Assembly (NCBI RefSeq): GCF_902500225.1
Contig: NZ_LR722653.1
Location: 191,909-255,908, forward strand
Reading direction: 5' to 3'
Length of the DNA: 64,000 nucleotides
Origin: Buttiauxella massiliensis
Lineage (GTDB): Bacteria; Pseudomonadota; Gammaproteobacteria; Enterobacterales; Enterobacteriaceae
Below the pieces are notes generated by a model. That model was given only the letters and a program-made list of their open reading frames with translations, searched no databases and had not been told where the DNA came from. Position 1 is the stretch's first letter; every line of letters starts with the position of its first letter. Below, piece by piece: positions 16,581-28,910 of this stretch. Made by a program: the position numbers and the translations under genes.

Positions 16581-17927
16581 ATGTTTAAACCAGAACTCCT
16601 TTCGCCAGCCGGAACGCTGAAGAATATGCGTTACGCTTTTGCCTATGGTGCCGATGCGGTTTATGCGGGCCAGCCGCGTTACAGCCTGCGCGTACGCAAT
16701 AACGAATTCAACCACGAGAACCTCCAGCTCGGCATCAACGAAGCTCATGCGCTGGGTAAAAAATTCTACGTGGTGGTGAATATCGCCCCGCATAACGCCA
16801 AGCTGAAAACCTTTATCCGCGACCTAAAACCGGTAATTGATATGGGCCCGGACGCGCTGATTATGTCAGATCCTGGTTTAATCATGATGGTGCGCGAAGC
16901 ATTCCCGGAAATGGATGTTCACCTCTCCGTGCAGGCGAACGCCGTCAACTGGGCGACCGTGAAGTTCTGGAAACAAATGGGGCTGACGCGCGCGATTTTA
17001 TCACGTGAGTTGTCGCTGGAAGAGATTGCCGAAGTACGCGAACAGGTTCCGGATATGGAGCTTGAAATCTTCGTTCATGGCGCTCTGTGCATGGCCTATT
17101 CTGGCCGCTGCCTGCTTTCTGGTTACATCAACAAGCGCGACCCGAACCAGGGCACCTGCACCAACGCCTGCCGTTGGGAGTACAAAGTTGAAGAAGGTAA
17201 GGAAGATGATGTCGGCAATATTGTGCATCTTCATGAGCCGATTCTGGTCCAGAACATTGAGCCAACTTTGGGCTCGGGCGCACCAACCGACAAAGTGTTT
17301 TTGATGGAAGAAGGTAAACGTCCTGGCGAATACATGACGGCGTTCGAAGACGAACACGGCACCTACATCATGAACTCCAAAGATCTGCGCGCCATTGAAC
17401 ATGTTGAGCGCCTGACCAAAATGGGCGTGCACTCGCTGAAAATCGAAGGCCGCACCAAGTCTTACTATTACTGCGCGCGTACCGCTCAGGTTTATCGCCG
17501 TGCGATCGACGATGCCGCTGCAGGAAAACCGTTCGACCCAACGCTTCTGACCACGCTTGAAGGGCTGGCGCATCGCGGTTATACCGAAGGTTTCTTACGT
17601 CGCCATAATCATGATTCTTATCAGAACTACGAGTACAGCCACTCGGTTTCTGAAAGTCAGCAATTTGTCGGTGAATTTACCGGTGAACGCCGTGACGGCC
17701 TGGCAGAAGTGAAAGTGAAGAACAAATTCCTGTTGGGCGATAGCCTTGAGTTAATGACCCCGCAGGGTAACGTCACTTTCACACTTGAGGTGCTGGAAAA
17801 TACCAAAGCGCAGCCGATTGAAGTCGCACCTGGAGATGGCCACACCGTTTGGATGCCTGTACCAGAAGATGTTTCGCTGGATTACGCGCTGCTGATGCGC
17901 AATTTGGTTGCTCAGAACGCGCGCTAA
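16581..17927 (+). CDS. trhP: tRNA U34 hydroxylation protein TrhP (peptidase U32 family)
   Basis: Formerly YegQ. TrhP is needed, using prephenate, for forming 5-hydroxyuridine at wobble U34, the precursor of cmo5U. The 448-residue protein (E. coli 453) has the U32 core: FKPELLSPAGTLKNMRYAFAYGADAVY at the N-terminus (in two blocks) and HLSVQANAVNWATVKFW. Four Cys at residues 170, 177, 193 and 197 (ALCMAYSGRC and QGTCTNACRW) presumably hold an Fe-S cluster. Downstream lies the small RNA gene cyaR, the same neighbour as in E. coli. Confidence 0.96.
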   Translation: MFKPELLSPAGTLKNMRYAFAYGADAVYAGQPRYSLRVRNNEFNHENLQLGINEAHALGKKFYVVVNIAPHNAKLKTFIRDLKPVIDMGPDALIMSDPGLIMMVREAFPEMDVHLSVQANAVNWATVKFWKQMGLTRAILSRELSLEEIAEVREQVPDMELEIFVHGALCMAYSGRCLLSGYINKRDPNQGTCTNACRWEYKVEEGKEDDVGNIVHLHEPILVQNIEPTLGSGAPTDKVFLMEEGKRPGEYMTAFEDEHGTYIMNSKDLRAIEHVERLTKMGVHSLKIEGRTKSYYYCARTAQVYRRAIDDAAAGKPFDPTLLTTLEGLAHRGYTEGFLRRHNHDSYQNYEYSHSVSESQQFVGEFTGERRDGLAEVKVKNKFLLGDSLELMTPQGNVTFTLEVLENTKAQPIEVAPGDGHTVWMPVPEDVSLDYALLMRNLVAQNAR

Positions 17928-17967
17928 GTCACTCATTGTGGGTATTTTTTCCGCGCCAGGACATTTC

Positions 17968-18010
17968 TTAGAAACCGATCACATACCGCTTCGCTGTATG
18001 CGGTTATTAT
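17968..18010 (+). promoter_or_regulatory. CRP site and promoter of cyaR
   Basis: TTAGA-AACCGA-TCACA (17968-17983) has one perfect CRP half-site (TCACA) and one weak half. Its centre falls 41.5 bp before the expected first transcribed base (G at 18017), the classic class II position. A -10 TATTAT occupies 18005-18010, 6 nt before that base. CyaR is named for activation by cAMP-CRP, so this layout agrees with its known control. Confidence 0.75.
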
Positions 18011-18046
18011 CGCCGGGCTGAAAAACATAACCCATAAATTCTAGCT

Positions 18047-18170
18047 ATATCCTAATAATTCGAATTGTAGAAAGGCGGCGACGCAGTGAATCTCCGGGAG
18101 CTTACTCAAGTAAGTGACTGGGGTGAACGAGGAAAGCCAACGCATCTACAATTTGAAGTATGACGGATAT
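18047..18170 (+). repeat. ERIC (intergenic repeat unit) inside cyaR
   Basis: The core at 18086-18130 closely matches the ERIC consensus, including GTGAATC, GGAGCTTAC and AAGTAAGTGACTGGGGTGA, the sequences used for ERIC primers. Terminal inverted repeats run ATATCC at the left to GGATAT at the right, with a longer imperfect stem (TTCGAATTGTAGA / TCTACAATTTGAA). Length 124 bp is typical. It is non-coding and would fold into a long hairpin when transcribed. ERICs are thought to insert at TA sites; a duplication is not clear here. Confidence 0.93.
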
Positions 18171-18190
18171 GTACCAGGAACCACCTCATT

Positions 18191-18227
18191 GGCCTGTGGA
18201 ATCTCCCTTCCGCAGGCCTTCTTTTTT
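18191..18227 (+). terminator. Rho-independent terminator of cyaR
   Basis: Stem GGCCTGTGGAA / TTCCGCAGGCC (one U-G pair in RNA), 6-nt loop TCTCCC, then TTCTTTTTT. Loop and arrangement match the CyaR terminator (loop AATCTCCCTT in E. coli). The two arms covary relative to E. coli, evidence that the structure has been under selection. Confidence 0.92.
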
Positions 18228-18316
18228 GCTAAACCCCGCAGACTCAGCCTGTTCTTACCCGCAAATCCCACACATAAGATACACTTTGAATTCAACTACA
18301 TTTCCCGAGGTCCGCC

Positions 18317-19216
18317 ATGGAGCAGTTTCCGGTATCGCTCGTCATTCTGAACGGCAAAGGTGCTAATAACGATATTTTGCGCAGCGCCGTCAAAGTCATG
18401 CGTGATGAGGGGTACACGTTACACATCCGCGTCACCTGGGAACAAGGTGATGCGATTCGCTATGTTGAAGAAGCATCCAGGATGGGCGTTGATACGGTTA
18501 TTGCCGGAGGCGGTGACGGCACGATAAACGAAGTGGCGACCGCGCTGGCGCAACTGGCCCCTGAACACCGTCCGGTGTTGGGCATTTTACCGCTCGGCAC
18601 CGCCAACGACTTTGCCACCAGCGTAGGCATTCCACAGGAGTTGGACAAAGCGCTGCAACTGGCAATTGTCGGCAAAGGGACGCCTATCGATCTGGTGCAG
18701 GTGAACGAATCGGCCTGGTTTATCAATATGGCGACCGGTGGTTTCGGGACGCGTATCACCACCGAAACACCGGAAAAACTTAAAGCAGCACTGGGCGGGA
18801 TCGCCTATTTCGTTCACGGCCTGATTCGCCTCGACACGCTCAAACCGGATCGCTGCGAAATTCGTGGTGAGAATTTTGAGTGGCAAGGCGACGCGCTGGT
18901 GATTGGTATCGGCAATGGCCGCCAGGCGGGCGGTGGGCAGGAACTCTGCCCGCAGGCATTGATTAATGATGGTTTACTTGAGTTGCGTATTTTTACTGGC
19001 GAAGAGTTGCTCCCGGCAATTTTTAAAACTCTGACGCAGCCGGACGACAACCCAAATATTATTGATGGGCGTTCATCCTGGTTTGAGATAACCGCCCCGC
19101 ACGACATTACTTTTAATCTTGATGGCGAGCCGCTGACCAGTCAGAAGTTCCGCATTGATATCCATCCGAATGCGCTGAGCTGCCGTCTGCCACCAAACTG
19201 CCCGCTGCTGGGTTAA
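18317..19216 (+). CDS. yegS: Lipid kinase YegS
   Basis: This diacylglycerol-kinase-fold enzyme phosphorylates lipids (phosphatidylglycerol in vitro for E. coli YegS); the true substrate is uncertain. The 299 residues equal the E. coli length. The nucleotide-binding signature [17 protein letters not shown] lies near residues 60-76, [19 protein letters not shown] follows, and the C-terminal beta-sandwich holds [10 protein letters not shown] with the conserved DGE. The start at 18317 is the family Met, and a CGAGG ribosome site precedes it. It converges on the ABC operon with 22 bp between the stops. Confidence 0.96.
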
Positions 19217-28740: not shown

Positions 28741-28857
28741 CTGCCCGGCGTGAAGAAGGGATGACCTAGCAGGCATCTGACTTCCCTACGCTGGCATTAT
28801 CCAGATCAGGTGGTACGGGTATTTCTCAGCCTTCACAAAGAAGGGCACCCCGAGTCA
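28741..28857 (-). promoter_or_regulatory. TPP (THI-box) riboswitch controlling thiMD
   Basis: On the minus strand the aptamer runs from 28857 (TGACTCGGGGTGCCC) through the invariant CTGAGA (in GGCTGAGAAATACCCGTA) and GATCTGGATAATGCCAGC to AGGGAAGTCA at 28778. It matches the E. coli thiM leader almost base for base. The remaining leader to 28741 forms the expression platform and contains the thiM ribosome site, so TPP binding should hide that site and block translation. Confidence 0.97.
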
Positions 28858-28910
28858 TTTAAATCAAAATCAACTACTTGCGATTAACGTCCCGTTAATC
28901 CCTGCACAGG

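Follow-up and report, generated by a model that had tools for sequence, protein, structure and literature searches.

CyaR (RyeE, RF00112) is a CRP-activated Hfq small RNA of Escherichia coli and Salmonella that is treated as a class II sRNA (PMC8294330) and has nadE as a published target in E. coli (PMC4098024). Across E. coli, Salmonella and Yersinia its seed is described as conserved and its 5′ end as not conserved (PMC11795201). In E. coli and Salmonella the gene follows trhP, and a CRP site centred at -41.5, an A-rich 5′ segment, the seed GGAACCACC and a terminator come one after the other; the cyaR locus described here is laid out likewise.

The work of De Gregorio (2005) reportedly deals with ERIC elements in Yersinia mRNAs. 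These elements are about 127 bp long and have inverted ends bearing TA (PMC2229807). Core sRNAs being short and conserved, one that receives an insert exceeding its own length (122 nt into 87 nt) would be expected to be killed. In the current study, we examined a cyaR gene that carries such an insertion in a 64,000-nucleotide stretch of Buttiauxella massiliensis DNA (the window, by which we mean the whole stretch), and compared it with its counterparts in related genomes.

Results

The cyaR locus of the window consists of a CyaR gene in two parts, with trhP upstream, in the order common to the window and E. coli K-12, and yegS downstream (Table 1). A sequence-only reading had proposed that an ERIC element splits the gene while the promoter, 5′ segment, pairing region and terminator are all retained, and this was upheld when the locus was aligned with the E. 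coli allele and those of the 11 further Buttiauxella. Its placement of a CRP half-site at -41.5 with the -10 in position was likewise borne out by the promoter alignment, in which TCACA occupies 17979-17983 and the opposite half, TTAGA, is poor, as it is in E. coli; judged from sequence, the promoter is thus of the CRP type. Homology to the annotated E. coli cyaR suggests a start at 18017 and an end at 18227, which would give an RNA of 211 nt. The true 5′ part, GCTGAAAAACATAACCCATAAAT, covers 18017-18039, a 5′ hairpin is predicted at 18017-18045, and the seed and terminator together take up 18170-18227. Elsewhere in the window, Rfam places a TPP riboswitch on the minus strand (28766-28862, 75.7 bits).

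Table 1. Features of the split cyaR locus (window coordinates)
Feature	Position	Strand	Basis
trhP (yegQ), next gene upstream, also in E. coli	16581..17927	+	NCBIfam NF011996; E. coli gene order
CRP site TTAGA-N6-TCACA, centre -41.5	17968..17983	+	sequence; alignment with the cyaR promoters of E. coli K-12 and the 11 further Buttiauxella
-10 hexamer TATTAT	18005..18010	+	sequence; found in 12/12 Buttiauxella alignment rows
CyaR 5′ segment with A-rich stretch, from inferred start	18017..18047	+	homology to E. coli cyaR; fold
Left flanking dinucleotide TA, probable target-site copy	18046..18047	+	comparison with 8 empty and 3 other interrupted sites
ERIC element, 122 bp, TATCC...GGATA	18048..18169	+	genome repeats; clade with G005 and G003 cyaR-ERICs; one long RNA hairpin predicted (fold)
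AAUUU, match to RNase E consensus RNWUU, predicted paired in ERIC stem	18150..18154	+	motif scan with pairing probabilities; consensus from PMC5222698
Right flanking dinucleotide TG, first bases of CyaR 3′ part	18170..18171	+	alignment
CyaR pairing (seed) region ACCAGGAACCACCTC	18173..18187	+	Rfam alignment; column conservation
Terminator stem-loop, 11 pairs	18191..18218	+	scan; pair counts (pairing in 100% of cells; both partners changed in 1 pair)
U tract TTCTTTTTT	18219..18227	+	sequence; identical in 12/12 Buttiauxella rows
yegS, downstream neighbour	18317..19216	+	NCBIfam TIGR03702

We take the core of the insert to be an ERIC. Matches to the insert occupy at least 43 places in the window genome, its own place among them, and those elsewhere are 74-92% identical to it across part or all of its length; this count is a lower bound, 40 of 145 candidate places having been scored. 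The insert is therefore one copy of a common repeat, dispersed in the genome and bounded by inverted ends that bear TA. Its ends, TATCC and GGATA, were set by the empty sites of eight relatives at 18048-18169, so that of the earlier proposal of a 124-bp palindromic element at 18047-18170 the palindrome stands, and the ends prove one base too wide on each side. A simple scan of 17900-18330 revealed neither an ERIC-borne sigma-70 promoter nor a second terminator, as a separate short gene would have; the same scan also misses the CRP promoter.

The comparison set comprised 12 Buttiauxella species: the window genome (G000), B. agrestis ATCC 33320 (G001), a record labelled B. agrestis DSM 4586 (G003), B. 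brennerae (G002), B. gaviniae (G004), B. izardii (G006), B. noackiae (G007), strains sp. A111 (G008) and sp. B2 (G010), B. warmboldiae (G011), G005 and G009. The closest relatives of the window's yegS also belong to Buttiauxella (93-99% protein identity). An uninterrupted allele, to be sought in related genomes, was found with normal spacing in eight of the 12 (G002, G004 and G006-G011). The split, first read as the event of a single genome, is in fact common to four species, all interrupted at the same place: the ERICs of G000, G003 and G005 are complete and point the same way, and G001 has a 33-nt insert that resembles both ERIC ends with the middle gone, i.e., an ERIC remnant. Assembly error is unlikely, because the G003 and G005 assemblies consist of 2 contigs. 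The two records for the same B. agrestis type strain, ATCC 33320 (L015) and DSM 4586 (L045, flagged UNVERIFIED_ORG), differ at 15.7% of gyrB third positions and carry different cyaR alleles; one of the two labels is probably wrong, and we treated them as separate species. Among 392 genomes of the family, at least 251 of which have a CyaR match under stricter filters, the exact-flank pattern of the split occurred in two, both Buttiauxella; the sample included six of the 12 Buttiauxella, G003 being absent, and the pattern misses any split with a flank mismatch. No split cyaR was seen with a 431-base query among 5,426 E. coli genomes, where the best-ranked place covers 43% of the query and none covers 80%, a split gene being estimated at about 70%.

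The Rfam CyaR model matches the window at 18148-18223 with 59.0 bits, against a gathering threshold of 47; the eight intact Buttiauxella alleles score 84.5-98.6 bits and that of E. coli K-12 scores 100.7. The 59.0 bits come from the seed and terminator. The 5′ part of the model is misaligned onto the ERIC, whose letters occupy roughly the first 30 model positions, and the insertion has moved the real 5′ part 124 bases upstream of its place in an uninterrupted gene. Automatic annotation would misplace the 5′ end because the model takes ERIC letters for the 5′ part, and split genes of this kind are a warning that covariance-model annotation puts their 5′ ends wrong. In the usual form of cyaR the 5′ segment is joined directly to the seed; in the window allele the 122-bp insert stands between them. 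We file the gene as an interrupted CyaR variant and do not take direct joining as defining. Each of the 12 Buttiauxella genomes, the window genome included, gave one CyaR match, so no backup gene was found. A search of the window genome for a second, intact copy, which had been named as a check on the proposal, likewise returned none, and cyaR is single-copy there.

Minimum-energy folds of the three full split alleles are made up of a 5′ hairpin, a long ERIC hairpin closed at the insertion point, a small seed hairpin and the terminator, with the ERIC predicted to form a self-contained hairpin. The full inserts add about 45-55 kcal/mol of structure, and the window RNA folds at -70.5 kcal/mol (z of -4.8), as expected of a palindromic repeat. 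Such structure could recruit RNase III. The cyaR-ERIC of G003 (L012, 1377-1587) contains a predicted uninterrupted 14-pair apical hairpin, interrupted in the other two full copies, which is a candidate RNase III substrate. The mean unpaired probability of the seed is 0.65-0.67 in the full split alleles, 0.81 in G001 and 0.59-0.81 in the eight intact alleles; the seed is thus predicted to be as open in split as in intact CyaR. Across the complete fold, pairing is kept in 97.8% of 186 cells, versus 27-43% with the partner slid by 1-3 positions, and two pairs are changed on both sides; 51 of 500 shuffles were as good (17 of 500 on the covariation score), which is a weak signal.

Variation among the three full split alleles is uneven. 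Upstream of the gene, 9 of 20 columns vary from -70 to -50, and 6 of 50 vary from the CRP site to the start. Within it, the counts are 0/22 for +1 to +22, 3/9 for the rest of the 5′ segment (2/9 in the eight intact alleles), 16/122 for the ERIC, 0/26 for the seed (TGTACC onward), 3/26 for the terminator stem-loop and 0/8 for the U tract; +1 to +22 is invariant in all 12 alleles, four interrupted and eight intact. Taken together, +1 to +22, the seed and the U tract (0/56) differ from the ERIC (16/122) with a Fisher p of 0.0017, a value to be read in light of a region grouping picked after the counts were known, of three full alleles being few and of columns that are not independent of ancestry. 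With the terminator added (3/82, two columns double-counted) p was 0.0175, and with G001 added (2/56 against 20/122) it was 0.010. The conservation of these key parts could, judging from the alignments, partly reflect flank exchange with intact species. The three terminator changes preserve the helix, one pair appearing as G-C, A-U or C-G across alleles and another as U-G or U-A. The terminator had been described as compensatory-mutated; the pairs are indeed kept, but this is not special to the split allele, as the differences from E. coli are also found in intact Buttiauxella. The alternatives occur in intact species too and so may predate the insertion.

Target pairing was assessed by a simple duplex calculation that ignores accessibility and takes as input 28 nt around the seed. 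Effects on ompX, luxS and nadE had been suggested as possible, and the three fared differently. For ompX, the suggestion gained support from the duplex control: GAGGTGG precedes the ompX start in all 12 genomes, and CyaR pairs at this Shine-Dalgarno sequence in every one, with energies of -17.9 to -23.6 kcal/mol in the four interrupted genomes and at most 2 of 200 shuffles as good there (at most 11 of 200 in the eight intact). The luxS duplex reaches -12.3 to -16.1 kcal/mol in the interrupted genomes versus -17.3 to -25.8 kcal/mol in the intact ones, with 44-106 and 1-42 of 200 shuffles as good, respectively. Pairing with luxS is predicted to be weaker because the AGCU half of the extended duplex, itself a candidate, now lies beyond the ERIC. 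In the four interrupted genomes nadE offered no site better than chance (66-134 of 200 shuffles did as well), and nadE was rejected as a target in Buttiauxella generally, with 12-122 of 200 shuffles as good in the eight intact genomes versus 10 of 200 in E. coli. All of these target controls are modest, because a seed complementary to the Shine-Dalgarno sequence pairs with many starts.

One insertion of an ERIC into cyaR is likely on phylogenetic grounds, because in a tree of 60 sampled ERICs the three full copies from cyaR group together as a clade (UFBoot 99 with flanks trimmed, 96 for G000 with G005); the same grouping was recovered with flanks kept (FastTree support of 0.936). The sample comprised 30 loci from G000 (of 43 matches) and 30 from G001, G003 and G005 (of 125 match rows), picked by likeness to the window copy with the best match per locus; some entries are partial, and a neighbouring copy may stand under two entries, as L144 and L147 seem to do. 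Copies most like that of G003 and unlike that of G000 may be missing from this four-genome sample. On single-gene gyrB and trhP trees, in which support at some weak nodes falls to 0.42, the four carriers fail to come together, and their distribution takes four changes, the maximum possible with four carriers (shuffled labels average 3.5). This scatter would also be expected had several ERICs inserted independently at the same target site, and the flanking dinucleotides differ as well, being TG/TG in G005, TA/TA in G001 and TA/TG in G000 and G003. Nevertheless, with the full cyaR-ERICs in one clade and in a shared orientation, we consider independent insertion very unlikely. A single insertion with scattered carriers implies repeated loss or exchange of the allele.

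Over the 120 columns from -111 to +9, G000 differs from the intact allele of B. gaviniae by 1.8%, gaps counted, versus 24% for the next nearest allele and a median of 27.5%. This near-identical block lies before cyaR (window 17906-18025; L008 in B. gaviniae), and its likeness suggests that a short recombination tract probably covers that interval in G000. The intact alleles of G008 and G009 read CTATACC at the insertion site, matching the left flank of G000, G003 and G001, and G is found there in the other six intact Buttiauxella and in all 28 readable outgroup alleles (39 loci examined). This may hint at a trace of precise ERIC loss; CTATACC is explained equally well by a simple substitution of A for G that either preceded or followed the insertion. 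The intact cyaR of B. izardii (L009) has one extra base beside the insertion site (CTGTAACTAAG), which could be the scar of an imprecise excision.

Discussion

We consider it probable, at about 0.6, that the locus encodes a functional, enlarged CyaR. One ERIC, as the comparison of alleles shows, jumped into cyaR between the A-rich 5′ segment and the seed, and the split gene would still be transcribed from its CRP-controlled promoter into an RNA of about 211 nt. Judging from the folds, the ERIC would fold upon itself into a long hairpin and so return the 5′ segment to the side of the seed and terminator; with conservation also taken into account, Hfq binding and seed pairing would be kept. Repression of ompX is predicted to be retained, and targets with continuous pairing through the insertion point, luxS being the candidate, to be weakened. 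The split allele may then have been passed between species, or lost from them, by homologous recombination or precise deletion, and near-neutrality may account for its persistence here and in three further species, in one of them as a remnant. Its absence from 8 of 12 species fits either selection against it or neutrality. The original idea that a mobile repeat has remodelled a regulatory RNA, together with the view that this RNA still functions, thus draws support from sequence comparison, in that an old insertion remains whole in three species, the first 22 nt, the seed and the U tract are unchanged, and the terminator changes keep their pairs.

The main rival to an enlarged functional CyaR is a processed form, which the sequence-only reading had also named. 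Here the long transcript would serve as a precursor from which RNase E, or RNase III acting in the ERIC stem, releases the seed and terminator as a 3′ RNA of about 58-76 nt, and the 5′ segment would be lost, much as in the maturation of ArcZ and RprA. We regard this as possible but tentative. RNase E together with Hfq is described as freeing 3′ sRNAs (PMC5222698), Hfq-bound CyaR as being cut by RNase E in vitro (PMC8294330), and ERIC insertion into Yersinia mRNAs as unmasking a site for RNase E within the 3′ inverted repeat (PMC10969869, PMC2229807). In all four interrupted alleles the 3′ arm of the ERIC carries AAUUU, which the shortened insert of G001 keeps at 0.74 unpaired, and no RNWUU occurs in the two of eight intact CyaRs scanned (G007 and G010), E. 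coli having one at the U tail only. However, AAUUU is an ordinary component of the ERIC arm, and finding it there is not specific; in its position just ahead of the seed it is predicted to be fully paired in G000 and G003 (0.0 unpaired) and mostly paired in G005 (0.22), and the ribosomes invoked to expose the site in Yersinia are absent here. Another RNWUU match, AAAUU at nt 20 in G000 and G003 (0.71-0.74 unpaired), is made by variation of the 5′ segment. Furthermore, invariance of the 5′ end (0/22) would be unexpected were that segment discarded; since the first 22 nt are invariant with or without the insert, an intact long RNA is favoured over one whose 5′ part is thrown away, and the alignments suggest that the 5′ segment seems to be used in split alleles too.

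It is also conceivable that the split allele is broken or weak, i.e., that CyaR function has been lost or reduced and that its parts look conserved through recency or through flank replacement from intact alleles. Eight of the 12 species lack the insert, the likely recombination tract extends over the G000 promoter, and luxS pairing is predicted to be weaker in all four interrupted alleles than in all eight intact ones. Yet the three full ERIC copies differ from each other by 5.7-12.4%, so the insertion is not recent, and still none of the 56 key columns has changed; replacement of the seed beside the ERIC without removal of the ERIC would, moreover, require very local exchange. We therefore hold a broken allele to be unlikely. 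A more speculative possibility, which we consider rather doubtful, is that the ERIC is in service: its hairpin and RNase E-like arm would make CyaR processed or retargeted (ompX kept, luxS released), the allele, an exchangeable form of a core regulator, would circulate among the species of Buttiauxella, and palindrome-assisted precise loss would restore the short form, leaving CTATACC in G008 and G009 as its footprint.

On the preferred reading of an enlarged, functional RNA, CyaR appears to be modular, its 5′ part and its seed-terminator part tolerating separation by a 122-nt hairpin. The presence of both intact and split alleles among related species amounts to a natural experiment on which targets need which part of CyaR, and the split gene bears on how mobile repeats shape regulatory RNAs. 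Gene and insert are each of a known kind; what is new is their combination and its persistence across species. Among the matches listed for open PMC papers, no title or abstract opening dealt with an ERIC lying within cyaR or within any other named sRNA gene.

The closest parallels each share a part of this arrangement. In Yersinia pseudotuberculosis, CyaR has a conserved seed, a differing 5′ part and, like the split CyaR, an extra hairpin predicted upstream of the seed (PMC11795201); that hairpin is native, no mobile element being described in the accessible text of that source, whereas the Buttiauxella hairpin is an ERIC. The ERICs of Yersinia mRNAs resemble the cyaR-ERIC in being cotranscribed and structured, with an RNase E site in the 3′ arm (PMC10969869, PMC2229807), but they reportedly sit in mRNAs with ribosomes nearby, and the Buttiauxella element lies inside a noncoding regulator. 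The palindromic elements of Rickettsia in tmRNA and RNase P RNA are likewise mobile repeats inside RNA genes; they differ in that the hosts are housekeeping RNAs and the repeat family is another one (PMC2229807). Compared with the CyaR of E. coli and Salmonella, finally, the window gene has a 122-bp ERIC between its 5′ segment and its seed and a length of 211 rather than 87 nt.
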